Of a stretch of DNA of 33,191 nucleotides, positions 4,441 to 33,191 are shown piece after piece; position 1 is the first letter of the stretch; every line of letters starts with the position of its first letter. The DNA comes from a virus. A model generated the notes under the pieces. The model was given only the letters and a program-made list of their open reading frames with translations. It was not told the origin of the DNA and searched no databases. The stretch lies in IMG/VR virus record IMGVR_UViG_3300037349_000496, positions 1 through 33,191 of that record. One strand, 5' to 3'. A program made the translations under genes and the position numbers.

Positions 4441-4454
4441 ACTATGAAAAATTT

Positions 4455-4472
4455 AACGCTTCATAATGCGTG
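4455..4472. promoter_or_regulatory. Operator O2 of the genetic switch
   Basis: AACGCT-tcataa-TGCGTG is an imperfect dyad with the same ACGC-N8-GCGT core as O1, centred exactly 50 bp away. It covers the -35 position of the leftward promoter and the start of the repressor transcript, and ends four bases before the preferred repressor ATG at 4477. Confidence 0.58.
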
Positions 4473-4476
4473 CCTG

Positions 4477-4816
4477 ATGAATGGGAAAGATTTTGGTAAA
4501 AGAATACAGGCACTTAGAAAAAAATCAGGACTCTCACAAGAGCTCCTGGCCGAGCGCGCTGAAATTGCTCACCGGGCATTGCAAACAATTGAATCAGGGA
4601 CAAGGAAACCCGACCCTCGAAACTATAAGTGCGCTTGCAAATGCTCTTAATATGGGCGCCGCTGATCTTTTTGCCGATGAGCTGGCTTATCAGGGAGAAC
4701 TATTTCTCGAAGTCGTCCGGCTTCTTACTTCCATGGATAAGGACCAACTTAGCGCGGTCCTTTTTGTCGCTCGAGGTGCTGGGAGTAGTCCCATCAATAA
4801 GACGAGAGCAAAATGA
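4477..4816 (+). pseudogene. XRE-family phage repressor, split by a one-base frameshift
   Basis: The frame starting at 4477 encodes the first four helices of an XRE/HTH_3 domain (FGKRIQALRKKSGLSQELLAE, then AEIAHRALQTIESGTRKP). It then leaves the family pattern and stops at 4650. From 4613 the +1 frame continues exactly where the family should: TLETISALANALNMGAADLF, then a helical tail to a stop at 4814-4816. Removing one base, most simply G4612 in AAA-CCC-G-ACC-CTC, restores a 112-residue repressor of usual size with no C-terminal peptidase domain. This could be a true lesion (repressor-defective, virulent-like derivative), a sequencing error, or a +1 shift at the proline codon CCC. The truncated product lacks the last HTH helix and would probably not bind. 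Confidence 0.78.
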
Positions 4817-19631: not shown

Positions 19632-19720
19632 TTAAAAAATCTCCTGTTAAAGTTTTAAAAACTGTTTCTTTTTTAGAGCCCTGCGCCCGAATCCGAGCGC
19701 ACGACTTTTTCAAGTTTTGG

Positions 19721-20958: not shown

Positions 20959-21921
20959 TTAAGCGCGAGCGGCTTTGATTTGCTCCTCCCGCAACTGCTC
21001 GTATTCGCGCTGAGATAAATTCGGATCATCCAGCGATTTCTTACTGGGTGTGCCGGTCGCGCGAACGGGCTTTACGGGCTTTGGAGCTTTGGTTGTTGTG
21101 ATTGTTTCAACCGAAGGATTTTGGGCTTTGATAAATCTGGATTCGAACTTGCCAAGTTCGCAGGCTGCATCGATTGCCGGAAGTTTACAAATTTTTTCGT
21201 ATTCTTCGGGATGCTTAGCCAATTGATACATGAACTCGGCACTTTGCTCGGACTTTAGAATCACCTGCTGGACAACTAAGGACATCGGGATGTGATTGAC
21301 GTCTTCTAAGGTCTCATTGAAGTCTGCATGAGCCTTTGAAAACTCCTTGACCCGTTCAACGTGCGCTTCGACCTGCTTTTGATGCTCAGTTTTGACTTGA
21401 ACTTCTTTGGCCTGGGTGTCGCGCTCTTTAAACTTTTGATCAAGCTTCCAATCAGTTAGCGCCTCGACATATTTCTCGTGGGTGTCGAAATTGTCAGGAC
21501 TCGGGCGTCCCTCATTACTCACTAGCTTTTCATCAGGCTGTGCAGGCTGATCTGGTTTAGCTTGGGCTGATTTTAAAGCTTGTGCCTTCCAGTACTCTTT
21601 TTCCTGCTCGGCCTGAGTTCTAAGCTTTGTGAGCTTATTGATTTTCTTTTGATAGCCGCCCGCTTTTTTCCCGGGTTTTTTGCCGGCATCGTCATCGGTG
21701 GATTCTTCAGATTCGTCTTGCTCTTCAGTCTCTTCGGTCGTTTCAGTGTTTTCAGTTTCACTTGCTTCCAAAGCTTCCGAGGCTTCAGGGGTCGTTTCGT
21801 CGGCTGATTTTTCAGCTGACGCGGATGTAGTTTCAACGACTGGTTTACCTTGAGCCAAATCGCCCATTGCGGCGGTCACAGCTTCTTGGGAATCCGTTGT
21901 TGAAGCGATGTCGACAGGCAT
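20959..21921 (-). CDS. Scaffolding protein
   Basis: 320 residues from the ATG at 21921, chosen because GGAG lies at the right distance; an upstream ATG (21990) would add 23 residues with no site. The N-terminal 85 residues are very acidic (Glu/Thr/Ser), then a Lys-rich hinge (KKPGKKAGGYQKKINKLTKL) and a long coiled coil with many Glu/Lys. The C-terminus is basic (TTTKAPKPVKPVRATG, then a Glu/Arg-rich end). Composition, position directly before the coat gene and lack of Cys-rich or catalytic motifs fit a podovirus scaffold that leaves the prohead. Array A lies 126 bases upstream of its start. Confidence 0.85.
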   Translation of the reverse strand: MPVDIASTTDSQEAVTAAMGDLAQGKPVVETTSASAEKSADETTPEASEALEASETENTETTEETEEQDESEESTDDDAGKKPGKKAGGYQKKINKLTKLRTQAEQEKEYWKAQALKSAQAKPDQPAQPDEKLVSNEGRPSPDNFDTHEKYVEALTDWKLDQKFKERDTQAKEVQVKTEHQKQVEAHVERVKEFSKAHADFNETLEDVNHIPMSLVVQQVILKSEQSAEFMYQLAKHPEEYEKICKLPAIDAACELGKFESRFIKAQNPSVETITTTKAPKPVKPVRATGTPSKKSLDDPNLSQREYEQLREEQIKAARA

Positions 21922-22046: not shown

Positions 22047-22074
22047 CTTTAGAAAATCTTTAGTTTTACTTTAG
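22047..22074. promoter_or_regulatory. Array A: three CTTTAG boxes at 11-bp steps
   Basis: CTTTAG occurs at 22047, 22058 and 22069, each exactly 11 bp from the last, between the scaffold gene (minus) and the RHH gene (plus). On the minus strand the units read ACTAAAGTAAA, ACTAAAGATTT, TCTAAAGGCG. The last box ends 14 bases before the RHH ATG. Arrays B and C share the same box and step. Confidence 0.8.
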
Positions 22075-22088
22075 TTTTAGGGTGCGCA

Positions 22089-22337
22089 ATGATTGGGTTC
22101 ATGGATGCCAACATGAAAACTCAAAGTCTTGATTCCATTCTTGAAAGTCTTGATCCCTCAGCCTCGTTTAATAAAGACGAAGAGCAAGTCAAAGCCGTCA
22201 CGTTTTGGATCGGGCTTACCTACAAAGACAAATGGGACCGGGTTCAACGAAAAACCAAGTTCGCTTTTGGAAAAAAAATGCAGGAGATTTTAAAGACTGC
22301 ACTCGATCGAGTGGATACCGAGGAGCTTGAGGCCTAA
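22089..22337 (+). CDS. Ribbon-helix-helix DNA-binding protein, probable late regulator
   Basis: 82 residues, the only plus-strand gene within the 17-kb late block. After a polar N-terminus, residues about 35-75 fit the MetJ/Arc (RHH) fold: strand KAVTFWIGL, helix A YKDKWDRVQRKTK, turn FAFG, helix B KKMQEILKTALDRV. RHH dimers read DNA through the paired strands. The gene starts right behind array A, whose boxes have the 11-bp half-site spacing known from phage P22 Arc, which suggests self-control. AGGG sits seven bases before the ATG. Its TAA overlaps the stop of the convergent HNH gene by four bases. The fold call is by pattern; the targets are inferred. Confidence 0.68.
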   Translation: MIGFMDANMKTQSLDSILESLDPSASFNKDEEQVKAVTFWIGLTYKDKWDRVQRKTKFAFGKKMQEILKTALDRVDTEELEA

Positions 22338-22699
22338 GCCGCAGCCTTCTTGGCCAAGGCGCCGGCCGGACGCTTACTGATTTTCTCAAACCAAATTGCA
22401 GCGTCAAAGACCACGTGCTCATTGAATGATTTGAAATTCCCAAGATGACCGATAAACAAATGGCAGTTCACGCCGTCTTTTTTGTTTTCGCAAAGCCAAA
22501 TGACGTTTGACTCGTCTTCTTCGCGCTCGGGAGCTAGGTGAAATGGAATAATATGATGAAGCTCGATCTTGCCGGTCGAAATCCCGCAACAACTGCAAAC
22601 CTTGGGATGCATCTTGGCAAATTCTTTTTTGAATTTTCCCCAGGTCGGCGAGCGCTTAGTACCTTTCGGGACCTTGTCTTGTTGTCGCGAATGAATCAT
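22334..22699 (-). CDS. HNH endonuclease-like protein
   Basis: 121 residues. Cys35-x2-Cys38 (VCSCCG), His48-His49 (LHHIIPFHL), Asn65 (NVIWLC) with Cys70, Cys79-His80 and His85 (CHLFIGH) build a treble-clef HNH site. The pattern HH..P, N, H-x4-H is the usual HNH order. Phage HNH proteins act with terminases or as free nucleases; here it lies in the accessory cluster, so a homing-type or accessory role is equally possible. GGAGGGG is just upstream of the ATG. It converges on the RHH gene with overlapping stop codons. Confidence 0.82.
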   Translation of the reverse strand: MIHSRQQDKVPKGTKRSPTWGKFKKEFAKMHPKVCSCCGISTGKIELHHIIPFHLAPEREEDESNVIWLCENKKDGVNCHLFIGHLGNFKSFNEHVVFDAAIWFEKISKRPAGALAKKAAA

Positions 22700-22722
22700 A
22701 TCCCCTCCATGGAATTTGATAA

Positions 22723-22974
22723 CTACTGCTGAGTCTCTTTCTCTGGCACAGGCGCGGGCACCGGCAAAATTGCTTCGCCCTCGGTTTCCGTAAAATCAAT
22801 GAACTGAATTTTATCGTGAATGAGTAACATTTGCGTTTTGCCATTGGCACTTGAGATCAGCGTTTGGCCCGGAGATTTGAACTGAATAGCCTTAAGGCGC
22901 TCGAATTCTTCCCGGTTATCGGTCGTAAAGCTCACTTCTCGGTTGTCGCGCAAAATAAATTTCACTTGAAACAT
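22723..22974 (-). CDS. Small beta-rich hypothetical protein
   Basis: 83 residues, beginning MFQVKFILRDNREVSFTTDN. Alternating hydrophobic strands (QVKFILRD, EVSFTTD, TQMLLIHDKIQFIDFTE) suggest a compact beta sheet, then a Pro-rich tail (ILPVPAPVPEKETQQ). No family recognised. A strong AGGAGAAGG site overlaps the stop of the preceding gene, so it is co-translated with the micro-gene run. Function unknown. Confidence 0.68.
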   Translation of the reverse strand: MFQVKFILRDNREVSFTTDNREEFERLKAIQFKSPGQTLISSANGKTQMLLIHDKIQFIDFTETEGEAILPVPAPVPEKETQQ

Positions 22975-22983
22975 TACCTTCTC

Positions 22984-23241
22984 CTATTCCATGCCTGCGT
23001 ATTTAAGTTCTTTATCGAATGCAAACTCGTCGATTTCTTCGCCTTTTTGTATTCTTGCCCGGTATTTTAGAAATATCTTTTTTTGCTTTGGATTTAGCGT
23101 TGCCAGAAATTCGATTTCTTCGGGCGAGAGGTTGAATTTGTTTTTGGGCTCGCGCGGGGTTTTTGGTTCAAAATTGCCGGCGCGAATCTTTTTCGCTGGA
23201 ATTATTGGACGATCTCGACCGGCTCTTTTTTTGCCGGTCAT
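22984..23241 (-). CDS. Small basic hypothetical protein
   Basis: 85 residues. The basic N-terminus MTGKKRAGRDRPIIPAKKIR is followed by a helical region NLSPEEIEFLATLNPKQKKI and FLKYRARIQKGEEIDEFAFD. No family recognised; the charged N-terminus could touch nucleic acid. Its ATG overlaps the TGA of the 23-codon gene (ATGA). It is part of the accessory run between portal and scaffold. Confidence 0.7.
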   Translation of the reverse strand: MTGKKRAGRDRPIIPAKKIRAGNFEPKTPREPKNKFNLSPEEIEFLATLNPKQKKIFLKYRARIQKGEEIDEFAFDKELKYAGME

Positions 23242-23309
23242 AAATTAACCCCAACAAAGAAGAGCGCCAAGCCAAGTGCTATAAGCACAAGTATTAGATA
23301 TTCACTCAT
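23238..23309 (-). CDS. 23-residue membrane micro-protein
   Basis: The minus strand encodes MSEYLILVLIALGLALFFVG plus VNL, a single transmembrane helix covering nearly the whole product. GAGG sits eight bases before the ATG, and both ends use ATGA overlaps (with the 39-codon gene before and the basic protein after). Small size makes it easy to miss; the coupling at both ends is the main support. A holin-like or membrane-anchored partner role is possible. Confidence 0.55.
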   Translation of the reverse strand: MSEYLILVLIALGLALFFVGVNL

Positions 23310-23425
23310 GACTTGACCTCACAAAATGTCAGCAAAAACAAAATTAGAATTGTTAAAATGAACGAGAGATAAAGCATTTCAAACTGCACGCGCTCTTGCG
23401 TAAGGCGAGAAATCCAGCTGGTCAT
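23306..23425 (-). CDS. 39-residue membrane micro-protein
   Basis: Begins MTSWISRLTQERVQFEMLYL, followed by a hydrophobic helix SFILTILILFLLTF and a short CEVKS end. One transmembrane helix with a charged N-terminal part, so probably N-in. Both its start (within the stop of the zinc-knuckle gene) and its stop (within the start of the 23-codon gene) are ATGA overlaps, which indicates translation. There is no lipobox before the Cys. Function unknown. Confidence 0.55.
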   Translation of the reverse strand: MTSWISRLTQERVQFEMLYLSFILTILILFLLTFCEVKS

Positions 23426-23655
23426 TTTTTACCGCCACGCATTCGAATGACTTGCAACTCGTCTTTGATCGATCGAAGAATATCGATCACTTCATTCAGG
23501 TAACCTGGCGTGAATGAATTCGGATTTTGCTGTATGTAACCGATCTGCTGACTGGGAATGTTTTGTTGATATTGATTTCGACACTGGTGGTTATGGTACA
23601 TCCCAAAATCAGAAAAATACTGCATGCAATCGGGACAGTGCCATTGCCCGTTCAT
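23422..23655 (-). CDS. Small zinc-knuckle protein
   Basis: 77 residues from the ATG at 23655, which has GGAGGGG directly upstream and overlaps the preceding TGA. A longer reading from a GTG at 23763 is rejected because it would run across that gene in another frame. Cys-x2-Cys (WHCPDC) and His-x-His-x-Cys (MYHNHQC) about ten residues later form a likely zinc site. A Gln/Asn-rich linker (NQYQQNIPSQQIGYIQQNPN) and a C-terminal helix (YLNEVIDILRSIKDELQVIR) follow. Probably a small nucleic-acid or protein adaptor; no family named. Confidence 0.68.
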   Translation of the reverse strand: MNGQWHCPDCMQYFSDFGMYHNHQCRNQYQQNIPSQQIGYIQQNPNSFTPGYLNEVIDILRSIKDELQVIRMRGGKK

Positions 23656-23765
23656 ACGCCCCTCCATTGCTTTTTCCCGCAGCGAGCGCACTGCCGATAT
23701 TCCAAATCGACATGCCTTGTTGGCATCCACTTGCTCCACTTGTGGGCGATCCAGCATTTCCACAT
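23652..23765 (-). CDS. 37-residue Trp-rich CxxC micro-protein
   Basis: Begins MWKCWIAHKWSKWMPTRHVD and ends CARCGKKQWRGV. Cys4 with Cys26-x2-Cys29, plus His8, could ligate one zinc, a layout common in very small phage proteins that start MWKCx(I/L)xHKW. It follows the sponge-like gene by four bases and overlaps the zinc-knuckle start by ATGA. It is out of frame with the longer open stretch covering the same bases. Function unknown. Confidence 0.62.
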   Translation of the reverse strand: MWKCWIAHKWSKWMPTRHVDLEYRQCARCGKKQWRGV

Positions 23766-23769
23766 GGGA

Positions 23770-24006
23770 TTAGCCGTTCTTGCGCTCTTCTTGCAATTCG
23801 GCAGTGCCGTTTCGCTTTATTTGTTCATCACGTATGGCTTTACCGATCCACATGTAACATTCTTCAAGTTTTGTAAATGCGAGCGATTGCGCGCGGCCAA
23901 CGCCAAGATTGTTGATCACTTGTTTGAGATTCTGGCATAAAGTCTTTGCCGCTGCTTGTTGTGATTCGGCTTGCTCGTGGTATCTCACATAATCAAATCT
24001 GCCCAT
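23770..24006 (-). CDS. Acb2/Tad1-type cyclic-nucleotide sponge candidate
   Basis: 78 residues, beginning MGRFDYVRYHEQAESQQAAA. The second half carries GVGRAQSLAFTKLEECYMWI (about 35-54) then GKAIRDEQ. The pattern R-x2-[SA]-L-A-x-T-K-L-E-E-x-x-x-W-x-x-x-A-I is the hallmark, as I recall it, of the helical-hairpin family that includes Acb2, a phage protein binding cyclic di- and trinucleotides to block CBASS-type defence, and the hairpin of Tad1. Two helices of suitable length are predicted. AAGGAGGG lies before the ATG. Binding and anti-defence function are inferred from family resemblance. Confidence 0.72.
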   Translation of the reverse strand: MGRFDYVRYHEQAESQQAAAKTLCQNLKQVINNLGVGRAQSLAFTKLEECYMWIGKAIRDEQIKRNGTAELQEERKNG

Positions 24007-24036
24007 AATTTCCCTCCTTGGAAATTTAAGTCACAA

Positions 24037-24096
24037 AGGCGCCGGGGGTTCAACCGAAAAGCTTAACCACACTTTTCGAGCAATTGTCCGACGCCT
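24037..24096 (-). other. Two-part stem-loop in the leader of the sponge-like gene
   Basis: On the minus strand AGGCGTCGG pairs with CCGGCGCCT (nine bp, one G-U), and nested inside is a perfect CGAAAAG/CTTTTCG stem with a ten-base loop. It follows the 31-codon gene and ends 31 bases before the ATG of the sponge-like gene. It is not followed by a T-run, so it is a poor terminator; a processing or leader element is possible. It does not fold as a tRNA. Confidence 0.5.
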
Positions 24097-24102
24097 CTAA
24101 GA

Positions 24103-24198
24103 TCAATTTTTACGCTTAACTGTCGTTTTGCGTTTGCATTTGCCTTTGGGCGAAGCTTTTACGCCGCCTTTGCCTTTGGTTTTTACTGCTTTTGCCAT
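24103..24198 (-). CDS. 31-residue lysine-rich micro-protein
   Basis: Reads MAKAVKTKGKGGVKASPKGK then CKRKTTVKRKN. Twelve of 31 residues are Lys or more, with no acidic residue, so it should bind nucleic acid or the packaged genome. AAAGGAGG lies at ideal distance from the ATG, much stronger than chance. It is the first gene after portal. Small, highly basic proteins are seen near capsid genes of other phages, but function here is unknown. Confidence 0.68.
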   Translation of the reverse strand: MAKAVKTKGKGGVKASPKGKCKRKTTVKRKN

Positions 24199-24265
24199 TG
24201 TGTGCCTCCTTTCGTGTTTCAAAACTTTCAAAGCTCATCCATGAGCCTGCCCCGAGCATCTTGCT

Positions 24266-26416
24266 TTAAGCGCCGCCACCGGCGTTGGGATTTTGTGGTG
24301 CTGTCATTTGCCCGGGCTGCGAAGACCCACCCGCGCCGCCTTGTGGTTGCGTGGATTGCAGCGGCGTGGTGGGATTATTCAGATTGTTTTGCATTTGCGT
24401 CGCCTGATCCATGAGGGTTTGAATCCGATTAACCTCATGCTCAAGAAGTGTCGCAGACGATTTTTGACCCATGCGCGCAAGCTCAATTTCAATCTTAGCC
24501 TGAATATCGGCAAATGCGATCCGCTCTTTGGAGCTAAGTTCAAGTTTTTTGTTTTCAATCACGTCCATGGCAGCATGAAGTTGTTGCGATAGCTGCTGGA
24601 TCATTTGTGACTGCTGATCCATGGCTTGCTTGACTTGTGGAGGCAGCGGCTGCTTATTTTCTTCATCGTTTGAGGCCATACCTGGCGGCAGTAACTTTTC
24701 TAAACGATCCGCGATCTCTTCATGTCCCGGCCAATCCATATTGCGAACCATAAGATCAGCTGTAGCCTGCGCTGAGGCAGGATAAGCTTTAATCAAATCG
24801 AGCATGGATTCAACGGCTTCTTGGCGTTTAGTCGTATGACTTGGACCGCTCGTGACTGCGACATCGTAAAGACCGACGCCTAAATTAAACATTTGCATCT
24901 TGCCGTCTTTTTGCAGGATTTTATTTATGGTAACTATTCGCTGAGAACCTTCGGCATCAATGCAGCGAACAGCGCGGTCAGTATCATAGACCCTAGGAAT
25001 CATGTCTAAAATAATGCGTCCCGCCTGGCGCTTGGATTTCATAAGATTATCGCCGTAGTGAAAAATATTGGTCTGCGACTGTGCGACTCGTCTTTGTATC
25101 GCGCGCCCACTGATTTCTTGGCTCTCATTTCCGACAGTTGCTTTGTAAATCCCGGTCGTGGCTTCGATGTCATTTGCAGCAGCCCCTCGAGCTGCGGTGA
25201 TTGCCTGAATCGGAGGCTCCCAAGCGTTACGGGTTGGCGGCCCTACAGGAACGCCGGCGATGGTTGTCGGTTTATAAAATAGGGCTGCATGATTTCGCCG
25301 GTTAGCTTCTTTCCACTGCGCTTCATAGCCTTCTTGCTGACCTTCGGCCAAAATAAAGGGTGCCTTTGGCGCAAGAGCGATGGTCTCGGCCTCGTAGGAG
25401 GCAAAGAAGTTATACATTCGCTGGGAATCTTTTGCATGGCGAACAATCCCTTCGATAACTTTTTTGCCGTCAAGATTAAACACATCACCATAAACTGGAA
25501 TAATTGGAATCCAGCGACATGGAACTTCGGTGCGGTCTAAAATTTCTAGCGCATTGATTTTGTACCACATGACCTTCCAGATGAGAGTTTTTCGCTCGTT
25601 TAAAATCGTAATTCCCTCAGGCAAGGGATCAGGAACTTGCGATTTTTTAATCACGTCTTTATTGCTAAGTAAAACAATGGTCTCTTCTGAATATTCTTTG
25701 CAATAATACTCAGCAACGCGCAGAGAATTTTGTTGTGCCCACTCTTTACGTGAATCACCCACAGAGCTCCAATCCTCCATGCTCGTCATTTGCGAATCAG
25801 GGTATTGGAGTTTGTAGTCATCTTTGGTCATATCTTCGGTGATAAAACCAAATTCCATGTCGCTGCCATCAAGCTCGGTCGAATTCGGATCGATGTAAAC
25901 GGCAAGCTCATTTTCGATTCGCTTGTAGAAAATTTCCTGATCAAAGCTCATCGGCGTTTGATAATCAGTCACGATTCTAAAAAACCCGCGACCTGTCGTC
26001 GTGGCTGACTCAAAGGCTGTATCGGTTGCGGTATCGGCATCGGAATTATATTCAATGTGGCGAATGATGCCTTCTAAAACTTCAGCGGTTTCAACGTCAC
26101 CTTTTTGGTCCATCGGTGAGACGTCGATACTCTGGCGGTTTTGGCGCTGATCATTCGTGATTTGGCGCACATACTGCGGCAAACGATTGATCACTAAACA
26201 AGGTCTGCGGTCTAAATGACGATCGCGCTTAATATCATCGGCCCACTGCTCACCGGCGCGAAAGCGTTTGTCATCTAAGGCAAGTTTTCTGATGTCGTTT
26301 TCGGCTTCTGCCACAAGCTTAAATCGCTCGTGAGCCATGCGAAGGATTTCTTCATCCTCGGGGGACATTTTTTTTGCGCTGATTTTACTGTCTTCGGATT
26401 CGTCTGCATCCTGCAT
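24266..26416 (-). CDS. Portal protein, P22 gp1-like
   Basis: 716 residues (P22 portal 725). The P22-portal N-terminal pattern is clear: LDDKRFRAGEQWADDIKRDR (about 44-63), RPCLVINRLPQYVRQITNDQ then RQNRQSIDVSPMD, and AFESATTTGRGFFRIVTDYQ. The core has DVFNLDGKKVIEGIVRHAKD, then ITAARGAAANDIEATTGIYK and NESQEISGRAIQRRVAQSQT, and ends in a long Gln/Met-rich helical barrel (about 580-690) and a Gly/Pro tail. Twelve copies form the DNA gateway. Array B lies 16 bases upstream of the start. Confidence 0.94.
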   Translation of the reverse strand: MQDADESEDSKISAKKMSPEDEEILRMAHERFKLVAEAENDIRKLALDDKRFRAGEQWADDIKRDRHLDRRPCLVINRLPQYVRQITNDQRQNRQSIDVSPMDQKGDVETAEVLEGIIRHIEYNSDADTATDTAFESATTTGRGFFRIVTDYQTPMSFDQEIFYKRIENELAVYIDPNSTELDGSDMEFGFITEDMTKDDYKLQYPDSQMTSMEDWSSVGDSRKEWAQQNSLRVAEYYCKEYSEETIVLLSNKDVIKKSQVPDPLPEGITILNERKTLIWKVMWYKINALEILDRTEVPCRWIPIIPVYGDVFNLDGKKVIEGIVRHAKDSQRMYNFFASYEAETIALAPKAPFILAEGQQEGYEAQWKEANRRNHAALFYKPTTIAGVPVGPPTRNAWEPPIQAITAARGAAANDIEATTGIYKATVGNESQEISGRAIQRRVAQSQTNIFHYGDNLMKSKRQAGRIILDMIPRVYDTDRAVRCIDAEGSQRIVTINKILQKDGKMQMFNLGVGLYDVAVTSGPSHTTKRQEAVESMLDLIKAYPASAQATADLMVRNMDWPGHEEIADRLEKLLPPGMASNDEENKQPLPPQVKQAMDQQSQMIQQLSQQLHAAMDVIENKKLELSSKERIAFADIQAKIEIELARMGQKSSATLLEHEVNRIQTLMDQATQMQNNLNNPTTPLQSTQPQGGAGGSSQPGQMTAPQNPNAGGGA

Positions 26417-26431
26417 TGCCTAAGATTCTGG

Positions 26432-26470
26432 CTTTAAAAAAACTTTAGGCTAACTAAAGATAAACTTTAG
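26432..26470. promoter_or_regulatory. Array B: four CTTTAG-type boxes at 11-bp steps
   Basis: CTTTAA at 26432, CTTTAG at 26443, CTAAAG (reverse) at 26454 and CTTTAG at 26465, each 11 bp apart, in the 71-bp gap between large terminase and portal. The leftmost box varies by one base. It lies just upstream of the portal start and is absent inside the coding neighbours. Confidence 0.8.
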
Positions 26471-26487
26471 TTTTTAAGGCTGGGGAT

Positions 26488-27927
26488 TTAGCCCATCCAA
26501 CCTGTGCCCATGTCTTCGGTGGAGTATTCTTCATGCTCAGGCTTTTTCTCAACGGGCTTGGTCTTCATGCGTGCGATTCCGGACATCACAAAATATCTCA
26601 TCTCATCCATGGCATGATCGTTTTGTTTCACGATACGACCCTTTTCATCGCGGCGATAAAGCCTAAATTCCGAGCGCCATTGATTACAGCTGGCAAAGAC
26701 TTTGAGCCGCCCACTTGAGAGACGCTGCCAGACTTCATAGATGCCCGCTTCAACCGCATTTGAAGCAACCTCTAAATCAAGGCCAAGGTCTTTATACATT
26801 TGAAGCAACTGCTCGCCGTCGTGCTGGGATCTTCCGCGCGCCGCCGGATCACATACACCCGCAAGCCAGCTCCCACGCGCTTTAATCGCCTGCGTATGCA
26901 CCGAAGGCTCGGCTTGGCCACGATAATGCTCGCTGTAACGATATAAGACGTCTGTCTCGCGATTAAGAGCGTAAAACCCGGCAGCGGTCTTATTCCAGCC
27001 AACATCTAGAGCATATCCGCGTGGCCAGTGAACCGGGATCTCAAAATCAGGGACAATGATGTCAGATTCAGGAACGGGATAAATGGCTCCTGCTCCAAGT
27101 TGTGGCACGCCTTTAGAACGAGCATCGCGCTGAAAGGGCGGGATTGAATCCCAGAGTTCTTTTTTGGCTTTCTCAGTTAAATGTGGCACATCGTCCCAAG
27201 TTGCCATCACGACAAATTTGGAGCCGTCGGCTTGCTCAAGGAGCTCACCGCCCGGAAGAAAAGCCAAGACCGTCTCACTCATTCCCATAAGCGGCGTGAA
27301 TGTGAGCATGAGCATTCCGTTATTGGTCATGGTTCGAAGAATGCATTCGGTGTAAACATCGAGAGGCGGCTCTTCATCGAGCCAAATGACGTCTTGCTCA
27401 GAGCCTTGAAATGAAATCCTTCCTTGATCGTATGACTTTAAGACAATCGTACTTGTGCCTCCAGAGACATGCTTGACCTGAATAATTTCAATTGCGTCTG
27501 AAACCCCAGGCTTAGCGAGAGTCTTGATTATGCAATCGTTTGGAATAAGTCCGGTCCCGCGCGCATGTGAGGGCCCAAGGAGTTTTTCCTGCAAAATATC
27601 GCGCGTGGTTTTGCCGGTATCGCCGGCAGCCCAGGCTTTGATTGCACGGTTAAAGCGTTTTCCTTGCCACCAGGGCGGATAAAGTCCAGTTAAGTGAAGA
27701 GCCATTTCAAAGCCGCCGACGCCCTCGGTTTTTCCCACACGATTGGCGGCGAGCATGAGGCGCTCGCGGTATTTGGTTCCAGCTTCAAAAAAGGATAAAT
27801 GCTTCGGGTAAAGCTCACGACGAAGTGGGCCCGTATCAGGATAATACGAAAAAAGCCTTCGCGAATTTTGTCGGCGCTCTTTTTCTTCAAGGATGGCAAT
27901 GAGCTCAAGCTTTTCCTTTTTGTCCAT
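26488..27927 (-). CDS. Terminase large subunit
   Basis: 479 residues. ATPase half: Walker A-type loop AANRVGKTE (about 60-68), Walker B VIWLDEE (about 180-186), and the coupling block MLMLTFTP (about 205-212). Nuclease half: ALDVGWN (Asp308), GVCDPAARG (Asp360) and NDHAMDEMRYF near the C-terminus supply the acidic metal-binding residues. The protein packages DNA into proheads and cuts concatemers. It overlaps the small-terminase gene by 23 bases. No missing catalytic residue seen. Confidence 0.95.
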   Translation of the reverse strand: MDKKEKLELIAILEEKERRQNSRRLFSYYPDTGPLRRELYPKHLSFFEAGTKYRERLMLAANRVGKTEGVGGFEMALHLTGLYPPWWQGKRFNRAIKAWAAGDTGKTTRDILQEKLLGPSHARGTGLIPNDCIIKTLAKPGVSDAIEIIQVKHVSGGTSTIVLKSYDQGRISFQGSEQDVIWLDEEPPLDVYTECILRTMTNNGMLMLTFTPLMGMSETVLAFLPGGELLEQADGSKFVVMATWDDVPHLTEKAKKELWDSIPPFQRDARSKGVPQLGAGAIYPVPESDIIVPDFEIPVHWPRGYALDVGWNKTAAGFYALNRETDVLYRYSEHYRGQAEPSVHTQAIKARGSWLAGVCDPAARGRSQHDGEQLLQMYKDLGLDLEVASNAVEAGIYEVWQRLSSGRLKVFASCNQWRSEFRLYRRDEKGRIVKQNDHAMDEMRYFVMSGIARMKTKPVEKKPEHEEYSTEDMGTGWMG

Positions 27928-28381
27928 TTTCGCTTCCGGCTAATTTTTCAAGCAGTTGGTTTAGCTTTTGGTCGAGCTCTTCATCCGATTTTGTGGCTAG
28001 CGGGTTGATCTTTAATTCGTAGTTTTCGCGCCATTTTTGCGGCTGGCGGTTTTTAAGCCAAAAGATCGCGGCGGTCGTATCGGGAGGATACCGCTTGATG
28101 GTGTCATGGGTGACGATCTGGCCCTCATTGCAAAAGACCTTTTCTTCGGGATGTGAATATCCAACGGCTCGACTAAAGAGAGAGGCTTCGACTAGGTCGT
28201 CGGCGATTTGCTTGGATTCTTTTAAGGCCTGAAGGAATGTCGGGAAGGCGCGCTTCCAGTTGTTGATCGTGCGATCTGAGACGCCAATAATCTCCGCGAT
28301 TTGCTTATCGGTTTTACCTTTGCGATAGAGCTCGAGCATTTTTTCTTTGAGTGCTTGGTTGAATCTTGATTTGCCAGCCAT
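27905..28381 (-). CDS. Terminase small subunit
   Basis: 158 residues. The N-terminal helix-turn-helix KTDKQIAEIIGVSDRTINNW (about 18-37), then AFPTFLQALKESKQIADDLV, SLFSRAVGYSHPEEKVFCNE, RYPPDTTAAIFWLKNRQPQK and a charged coiled C-terminus are the typical small-terminase series. It recognises the packaging site on phage DNA and recruits the large subunit. It is the first gene of the late leftward block; array C lies 36 bases upstream. Confidence 0.93.
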   Translation of the reverse strand: MAGKSRFNQALKEKMLELYRKGKTDKQIAEIIGVSDRTINNWKRAFPTFLQALKESKQIADDLVEASLFSRAVGYSHPEEKVFCNEGQIVTHDTIKRYPPDTTAAIFWLKNRQPQKWRENYELKINPLATKSDEELDQKLNQLLEKLAGSENGQKGKA

Positions 28382-28416
28382 GATCTTGTTTTCGGCTGAA
28401 ATCTTTCACTACTCGC

Positions 28417-28444
28417 CTAAAGAAAAACTTTAGTTAAACTTTAG
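28417..28444. promoter_or_regulatory. Array C: three CTTTAG-type boxes at 11-bp steps
   Basis: CTAAAG at 28417, CTTTAG at 28428 and 28439, all 11 bp apart, in the divergent gap between small terminase (minus) and the lysis cassette (plus). On the minus strand two units read ACTAAAGTTTA and ACTAAAGTTTT, and array B has close copies of both. Placement would allow control of packaging and lysis together. Confidence 0.8.
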
Positions 28445-28502: not shown

Positions 28503-28805
28503 TTGAGTGACGATGAATTCAAAAGTCCCTATGAAATTGACAAGAAAACCAGAATCTCCCTGGAAGTCGTCATTGCTCTTACCGCTTCCGTCATCGGGGG
28601 AACATGGTCAATCGCCTCCAGCACGACCAACTCGCAAGCCGAAATGGCCGCCCTTCATCGCCTGGAAAACAAGGTCGACGAGCTCGTCAAAGCCAACAAC
28701 ATCCATACCGAAAACACGATTAAAATTGTTAAGGATATTGAAAGTTTACAGAGGGACGTTCGGCGCATAAAAAAACAAAAAGCGCCCAAATGGGATGAGG
28801 AATAA
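28503..28805 (+). CDS. Single-pass membrane protein of the lysis cassette
   Basis: 100 residues from a TTG start with GAGGG four bases upstream. A polar N-terminus (SDDEFKSPYEIDKKTRISLE) is followed by one transmembrane helix (VVIALTASVIGGTWSIA, about 23-39) and a long coiled coil (AALHRLENKVDELVKANNIH, IKIVKDIESLQRDVRRIKKQ). This shape is common just before holins in tailed phages. It could be a holin modulator or antiholin; I do not recognise the family. It is the first gene of the plus-strand block. Confidence 0.68.
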   Translation: MSDDEFKSPYEIDKKTRISLEVVIALTASVIGGTWSIASSTTNSQAEMAALHRLENKVDELVKANNIHTENTIKIVKDIESLQRDVRRIKKQKAPKWDEE

Positions 28806-28807
28806 AA

Positions 28808-29032
28808 ATGTTTTCAAAGCTGATTGATTTTTTATCGCGAAAGTTTTTGGCTTCGGAATCCGGCAAGGTTTATATTTTCTGCTTGGTTTTTTTCTATAAA
28901 TCCGCAAATGCCAGTGAAGCGGTCGTCATGGCTGCAATCGGTGGAATTGTCACGCTGAGCACGGCTTATCTCCATTTCAATGTTCAAGACAATAAAAAGG
29001 ACGCCGACACGCCGGCGGTGCCAAAGCCATGA
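28808..29032 (+). CDS. Holin candidate
   Basis: 74 residues. Two hydrophobic segments are visible: KVYIFCLVFFYKSA (about 20-33) and EAVVMAAIGGIVTLSTAYLH (about 37-56), with a basic N-terminus and a charged C-terminal tail (NKKDADTPAVPKP). Size, topology and the ATGA overlap with the following endolysin-type gene fit a small holin that permeabilises the inner membrane. GAGGA sits seven bases before the ATG. Confidence 0.68.
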   Translation: MFSKLIDFLSRKFLASESGKVYIFCLVFFYKSANASEAVVMAAIGGIVTLSTAYLHFNVQDNKKDADTPAVPKP

Positions 29033-29475
29033 ATCTCATTCTCGTGCGCACTGATTATCGCCCGGATGGAATCTTTGGCGAACTTTTCGCACCGATGGGA
29101 CCAATCGCAGTTACGCTTGAGCATGCTTATTTGGACGTGAACGACGGCTATGTCCCAAAAGTTTCCAACGGGACCTATAATTGTGTTCGCGGCCTTCATC
29201 GCCTCGAGGGAATGAAGGCGCAATTTGAAACTTTCGAAATTGAAAATGTTCCGGGACACACCGATATTTTATTTCACTCTGGTAACGCAAACGAAGACAG
29301 CGCCGGTTGCATTTTGGTCGGTGGCAAAATTGTAAAGCTGCCGGCAAAAGTGCCGAGCTCGCGCTGGCTAATTATCAATTCGAGAAGCACGTTTGCAAAC
29401 CTTATGAGACTTCAGCAGGGCTGTGATAGCTTCTCGTTAACCATCAGCAAAGGAATTCAAAATGCAATGGAGTGA
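29029..29475 (+). CDS. DUF5675-type putative lysis enzyme
   Basis: 148 residues. The family pattern is clear: an N-terminal LILVRTDYRPDGIFGELFAP, VSNGTYNCVRGLHRLEG, FEIENVPGHTDILFHSGNAN, DSAGCILVGGKIVKLPAKVP and CDSFSLTI. Conserved His83 (FHSGN) and Cys94 (AGCILVG) recall the His/Cys pair of L,D-transpeptidase-like peptidoglycan enzymes, so it is the likely endolysin. That activity is inferred, since the family's reaction is not firmly known to me. It lies between the holin candidate and the overlapping gene pair. Confidence 0.78.
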   Translation: MNLILVRTDYRPDGIFGELFAPMGPIAVTLEHAYLDVNDGYVPKVSNGTYNCVRGLHRLEGMKAQFETFEIENVPGHTDILFHSGNANEDSAGCILVGGKIVKLPAKVPSSRWLIINSRSTFANLMRLQQGCDSFSLTISKGIQNAME

Positions 29476-32922: not shown

Positions 32923-32957
32923 AATTTTTCTCCTTATGTTTTTATTGTAAATTTAAA

Positions 32958-33191
32958 ACGCGGGCCCCAACGCGGTCCCCAACGCGGTCCCCAACGCGGG
33001 CCCGAACGCGGTCCCCAACGCGGGCCCGAACGCGGTCCCCAACGCGGTCCCAAACGCGGTCCCAAACGCGGTCCCAAACGCGGTCCCAAACGCGGTCCCA
33101 AACGCGGTCCCCAACGCGGGCCCGAACGCGGTCCCCAACGCGGTCCCAAACGCGGTCCCCAACGCGGTCCCCAACGCGGTCCCCAACGCGG
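32958..33191. repeat. 12-bp tandem repeat, 19.5 units to the window edge
   Basis: Units follow ACGCGG[T/G]CCC[C/A/G]A, with 19 full copies and a six-base part copy at the edge. Variation is limited to base 7 (T or G) and base 11 (C, A or G), and G7 goes only with C or G at base 11. Very GC- and CpG-rich against an AT-rich flank. Because 12 is a multiple of three, long stop-free frames arise by default (for example G-T-A-L/F or G-P-R-x on the minus strand), so the open frames here are not evidence of a gene. Slipped-strand growth is the likely origin. Confidence 0.9.

Follow-up and report, generated by a model that had tools for sequence, protein, structure and literature searches.

We analyzed a viral DNA of 33,191 bases, the whole of IMG/VR record IMGVR_UViG_3300037349_000496 (handle G000; the window below), and identified three arrays of a CTTTAG box repeated at 11-bp steps, each lying at the head of a late gene unit. 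The record belongs to a temperate, P22-like phage, with an integrase and an excisionase-like helix-turn-helix (HTH) protein encoded at its left end. The arrays are a genuine, non-random feature of this DNA and are probably regulatory. With slightly less than even confidence, we favor a reading in which they are operators for a single dimeric, sequence-specific protein that would occlude promoters at arrays 1 and 2. The most likely binder would be P0001, an 82-residue protein whose gene lies next to array 1.

Phased boxes in the late-gene gaps

Direct reading of the window confirmed what a first-pass annotation had described: ten boxes, all CTTTAG or its complement save one CTTTAA, with every step exactly 11 bp (Table 1). 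Two of the ten (26454 and 28417) are reversed. The aligned boxes give AAACTTTAGTTT, which the weight matrix resolves into a CT-WW-AG core with an A-rich left flank and a T-rich right flank, and the box is pseudo-palindromic (AAACT-WW-AGTTT). This near-palindromic form explains the tolerance of either orientation. The spacers vary (AAAAT, TTTTA, AAAAA, GCTAA, ATAAA, and TTAAA) while the boxes remain constant, which indicates that the boxes are selected sites and that the arrays are neither tandem nor recent duplications.

The phased pair pattern, with up to two mismatches allowed, yielded 13 matches against 2.5 expected, a number reached by none of 100 shuffles. When all hexamers were scanned across the window at periods of 7 to 30, the only runs were the three arrays and a 12-bp coding repeat near the right end; 60 dinucleotide shuffles gave a mean of 0.3 three-box runs, and the same hexamer and period never appeared twice in any of them. 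Phased pairs within the arrays scored 21 to 33 with the box weight matrix and the next best in the window 12.7. The matrix scan of the window recovered no fourth array, and, apart from one pair at 20 bp, the only steps between phased strong sites were 11, 22, and 23 bp. Equally frequent phased boxes, whose presence elsewhere in the record the first-pass annotation had counted against a regulon, were looked for and not found; the arrays stand apart. A weak candidate site before the coat gene (20946, CTTTAA-N5-CTTTAA) was rejected, as it overlaps the Shine-Dalgarno region and scores low.

The placement of the arrays before three late units, in the scaffold/82-residue gene, terminase-portal, and terminase-lysis gaps, was likewise borne out. 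The accompanying statement that these are the only sizeable gaps was too strong: the list of open reading frames (ORFs) leaves others, such as 23242-23421, 24007-24265, and 19632-19720, some of them with tiny ORFs. With three boxes of the same orientation at 11-bp steps, each frame of one strand meets a TAG and each frame of the other a TAA. Because stops fill every frame, such an array cannot sit inside a gene, and its intergenic position is by itself not evidence. The informative point is which gaps the arrays occupy rather than that they occupy gaps.

Array 1 stands in the divergent gap between the scaffold gene and the 82-residue gene. It ends 14 bp from the ATG of the latter; on the other side, the likely scaffold ATG, at 21921 and preceded by GGAGT in the sequence, is 125 bp away. 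Array 2 lies in the 71-bp gap between the codirectional large terminase and portal genes, 15 bp from the portal ATG. Array 3 is placed in a second divergent gap, 35 bp from the small terminase gene and 58 bp from the lysis-side genes. All start codons in the window are predicted.

Table 1. Phased arrays, adjoining genes, and comparable elements in other phages (positions without a locus name refer to the window)
Feature	Position	Strand	Details
Head scaffolding protein	20959..21921	-	phrog_8865, E value 2.7e-47
Array 1	22047..22074		CTTTAG x3 at 22047, 22058, 22069, all +
P0001, 82-residue orphan ORF, candidate array-binding protein	22089..22337	+	Codon usage
P22-like portal protein	24266..26416	-	PF16510, E value 3.4e-172
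Array 2	26432..26470		CTTTAA 26432, CTTTAG 26443, CTAAAG 26454, CTTTAG 26465
Terminase large subunit	26488..27927	-	61% identity to EBPR podovirus 1, closest match
Terminase small subunit, N-terminal HTH	27905..28381	-	phrog_309, E value 6.5e-46
Array 3	28417..28444		CTAAAG 28417, CTTTAG 28428, CTTTAG 28439
Divergent lysis-side genes	28503..29475	+	100-residue ORF, 74-residue ORF, DUF5675 protein
Conserved CTAAAG x3 arrays, Bacteroidota-like phages	L375:16771-16798, L376:9452-9479, L022:1935-1962		
TGTAA-N3-TTACA before P22-like portal genes	L195:9923, L275:6744, L276:1840, L281:9965		

Relatives and the terminase-portal junction

A single-sequence search returned no close portal relatives, and a portal profile was used to fetch 160 related loci. 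The conservation of the boxes in relatives, proposed earlier as a check, was found in one case: L068 (also fetched as L202) carries an array and the other portal relatives do not. L068 was also found independently by the DNA pattern alone. Its portal protein is 47% identical to that of the window and its large terminase is of another type. The three-box array of L068, in +,-,+ order, lies 26 bp upstream of the portal gene at the terminase-to-portal junction and matches array 2 in both junction and orientation order.

The closest sister phages (L195, L275, L276, and L281; 48 to 51%) carry instead the sequence TGTAA-N3-TTACA, 22 to 26 bp upstream of the portal gene. Only five copies of this element occur in 2.29 Mb; four are at the sister portal junctions and the fifth (L195:4315) is upstream of a likely integrase gene. 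The element is another dimer-type palindrome at the same junction. We infer that control is exerted at the terminase-portal junction through operators that vary in sequence from lineage to lineage.

In an unrelated phage (L369:2536-2563), the gap separating large terminase from portal also has a mixed-orientation CTTTAG array. This array is 29 bp upstream of an 89-residue orphan gene that is encoded on the opposite strand.

Matches in viral contigs at large were less informative. The 59 matches of the same-orientation (+++) pattern were rejected as a sign of a widespread regulon, since identical spacers mark most of them as tandem repeats, many are T7-like, and an array with all boxes in one orientation has to be intergenic in any case. 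Mixed-orientation matches were mostly chance occurrences inside conserved coding genes and were set aside as well.

Candidate operators and competing explanations

From the arrangement of the boxes we infer protein binding, a likely binder, and a sign of regulation. The near-palindromic form suggests one protein dimer per box, and with an 11-bp step three to four dimers would line up along the same helix face, where they could bind co-operatively. Arrays 1 and 2 leave just 14 to 15 bp before the start codons, too little for an activator acting on those genes from upstream. Bound protein there could occlude overlapping promoters, such that the 82-residue gene would be autoregulated and portal transcription held back. 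Taken with the 26 bp of L068 and the 22 to 26 bp of the sister palindromes, these short distances imply that the protein would cover the promoter, and repression with autoregulation fits best. At array 3 the same protein would act on the terminase and divergent lysis-side genes, and its distances from them could allow action either way.

The 82-residue ORF is a real gene by codon usage, at 0.39 bits per codon; none of 33 spurious ORFs exceeded 0.18. Residues 32 to 74 have an isoelectric point of 10.1, giving the protein a basic C-terminal part. The first-pass annotation had taken it for a ribbon-helix-helix protein. This identity was not supported: no relation was found in Pfam, NCBIfam, PHROGs, the PDB, phages, or plasmids, and a Pfam match to a ribbon-helix-helix family was absent even at an E value of 10. 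The label is a guess from protein shape. The stretch VKAVTFWIGLT appears strand-prone by eye and is followed by two helix-like segments; a single-sequence AlphaFold2 model of low confidence (pLDDT 62) shows only helices. Relatives of P0001 were found neither in viral contigs, phages, plasmids, the PDB, and the 34 array-bearing records nor in 10 bacterial genomes and all ORFs of the fetched loci. The one argument for P0001 as the putative binder is its position next to array 1.

Several results weigh against the operator reading. They include the absence of P0001 homologues in all searches together with its low-confidence fold, and the single array carrier among the 160 portal relatives. No convincing sigma-70 promoter was found overlapping the arrays, the best candidates occurring at background frequency; the promoter consensus of the host may differ, and the start codons from which distances are counted are predicted. 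In addition, two other phages, G023 (from L046) and L022, carry similar arrays in an activator position.

These two phages bear directly on the main rival to repression, an activator of the Alt or Ltr type. Under this explanation, a phage protein bound to phased boxes just upstream of late promoters would recruit RNA polymerase and switch on the scaffold, portal, and terminase genes. In phage TP901-1, the sites bound by Alt at the late promoter are four imperfect direct repeats that span -76 to -32 (PMC13123087), and in our check of the TP901-1 genome 11 bp was the strongest period directly after alt. G023 and L022 are Bacteroidota-like phages with 67% identical DNA. They share the sequence CCTAAAGTTTGCCTAAAG(T/G)TTGCCTAAAG at the portal-to-capsid/protease junction, directly after a terminator-like hairpin. 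In both, the last box of this CTAAAG x3 array lies exactly 18 bp before TATTTTTG; a second copy in G023 stands 18 bp before CAAATTTG. The distance to this TAnnTTTG-like element is fixed while the flanks are not conserved. We take TAnnTTTG to be the Bacteroidota -7 element, which places the boxes at about -35, -46, and -57. This array is probably an activator-dependent late promoter, and it may be unrelated by descent to those of the window; its occurrence in unrelated phages shows that the repeat architecture recurs.

In the window, most boxes read CTAAAG toward the minus-strand late genes (three of three, two of three plus one variant, and two of three), which speaks for such an activator. 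However, at arrays 1 and 2 and in L068 a promoter has no room between array and start codon unless the starts are misassigned, and no -10-like element lies at a fixed distance from the three window arrays. Array-to-start distances range over 14, 15, 35, 58, and 125 bp, and the activator geometry was seen only in G023 and L022, beyond which no clear peak in distance to a -10 element emerged across all array loci. No ArpU-, RinA-, Alt-, or Ltr-family protein was recognized among the window proteins scanned, a set that did not include every small ORF. We consider an activator unlikely, though it deserves serious attention.

A role in packaging or concatemer processing, with the boxes recognized by terminase like the CCTAAAG repeats at T7 DNA ends, appears quite improbable. 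Arrays of CTAAAG boxes in phage DNA are common to the window and the T7 SRL/SRR regions, array 3 abuts the small terminase gene, several other arrays (L010, L027, L045, and L370) do the same, and about one-third of the viral-contig array loci, many of them T7-like, lie within 2.2 kb of a large terminase gene. The T7 repeats, however, are mostly 13 bp apart and serve packaging at DNA ends, while the window arrays keep an 11-bp step at gene starts. In a control at 12-bp spacing, which is confounded by coding repeats, terminase neighbors were present in 3 of 18 loci among the matches listed, all from the same T7-like families. One packaging start also does not account for three separate arrays when two of these lie within the late operon. 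Separately, some contigs that are probably T7-like (L011, L014, L019, L040, L043, L044, and L056) have CTAAAG arrays with an 11-bp step close to what are likely large terminase genes; these arrays may be a counterpart, at 11 bp, of the terminal CCTAAAG repeats of T7.

Alternatively, no dedicated phage regulator would be involved: a nucleoid or other DNA-binding protein of the host could use the arrays, or their A/T-rich DNA, being helically phased, could serve bending or silencing. We regard this as improbable. The A/T-rich spacers, a step of about one helical turn, and an 82-residue protein without a known fold would all agree with it, but what is conserved is an exact hexamer rather than A/T content, the spacers include GCTAA, and such arrays are nearly absent from bacterial genomes. 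Across about 2.9 Gb, only 3 of 793 genomes (1 of 395 and 2 of 398) contain a strict three-box array, and its spacers are identical in every case. Centromere-like (parC) repeats serving a ParR-like protein in plasmid-style maintenance are highly improbable: no ParM- or ParA-like gene was recognized among the window proteins tested, an integrase is present, and the three arrays are dispersed at late-gene junctions.

Returning to the operator reading, the coordinated late regulon put forward in the first-pass annotation remains plausible, given a shared one-box-per-turn element at three late units, the counterpart in L068, and the rarity of such arrays elsewhere; the ribbon-helix-helix identity of the switch protein is not supported. 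The fuller proposal is that the orphan protein autoregulates and co-ordinates the three late units through phased palindromic boxes, as a late repressor or dual regulator, and that relatives keep the terminase-portal control point but swap the operator. We consider this unlikely, yet worth entertaining.

Known systems and neighboring features

In the classical view, the late genes of P22-like phages are transcribed from a single promoter by antitermination. If the operator reading is true, it would suggest that the terminase-portal junction contains internal late promoters, each lineage having its own operator (CTTTAG arrays or TGTAA-N3-TTACA). It would also give a P22-like phage a compact late regulon with a new operator and provide a function for an orphan protein. 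Control of several late promoters through a common cis element by a small phage protein has a precedent in P2 Ogr and P4 Delta. There the activator is a zinc-finger protein and each start has just one dyad, some 55 bp upstream, whereas the window has multi-box phased arrays and an orphan ORF.

The first-pass annotation knew of no described phage system with this arrangement, which is incorrect as to kind, since late regulons with repeats of about 11 bp have been described (TP901-1 Alt, PMC13123087; period checked) and the two Bacteroidota-like phages also carry CTAAAG arrays. TP901-1 Alt, Ltr, and RinA resemble the proposed system as phage-encoded regulators of late (terminase and structural) genes that act through a short repeat array, and phased repeat arrays head late genes in the window. 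In phi13, whose Ltr repeats are direct and 18 bp long, several late transcription starts are thought to be under the same control. In these known systems direct repeats precede a single main late promoter and activate it; the window differs in that its boxes are palindromic and form three arrays, of which two adjoin start codons. What is new is thus the combination of palindromic CTTTAG arrays at three late units with an orphan protein.

The half-sites of P22 Arc are spaced 11 bp apart. For the ribbon-helix-helix repressor RelB, the occupied sites are four 6-bp repeats along one DNA face (PMC2812701), and R1 ParR needs 11-bp repeats (PMC9426499). The likeness of these three proteins to the proposed system lies in side-by-side dimers on one helix face at short sites; the 82-residue protein has no detectable sequence relation to any of them.

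Other features of the window were noted. Between the portal and scaffold genes, the small protein encoded at 23770-24006 on the minus strand has an Acb2/Tad1 hairpin domain (PF24729, E value 9.7e-10) and is likely a sponge against cyclic-nucleotide defense signals. An Xre/cI-like repressor gene at 4444-4816 on the plus strand appears split in two frames, with the N-terminal HTH in 4444-4650 and the rest in the ORF at 4481-4816, which suggests a frameshift or a sequencing error. The 12-bp tandem repeat at the right end (32957-33180) is coding in a frame-dependent manner, giving, for example, GPRWGPR-like repeats.

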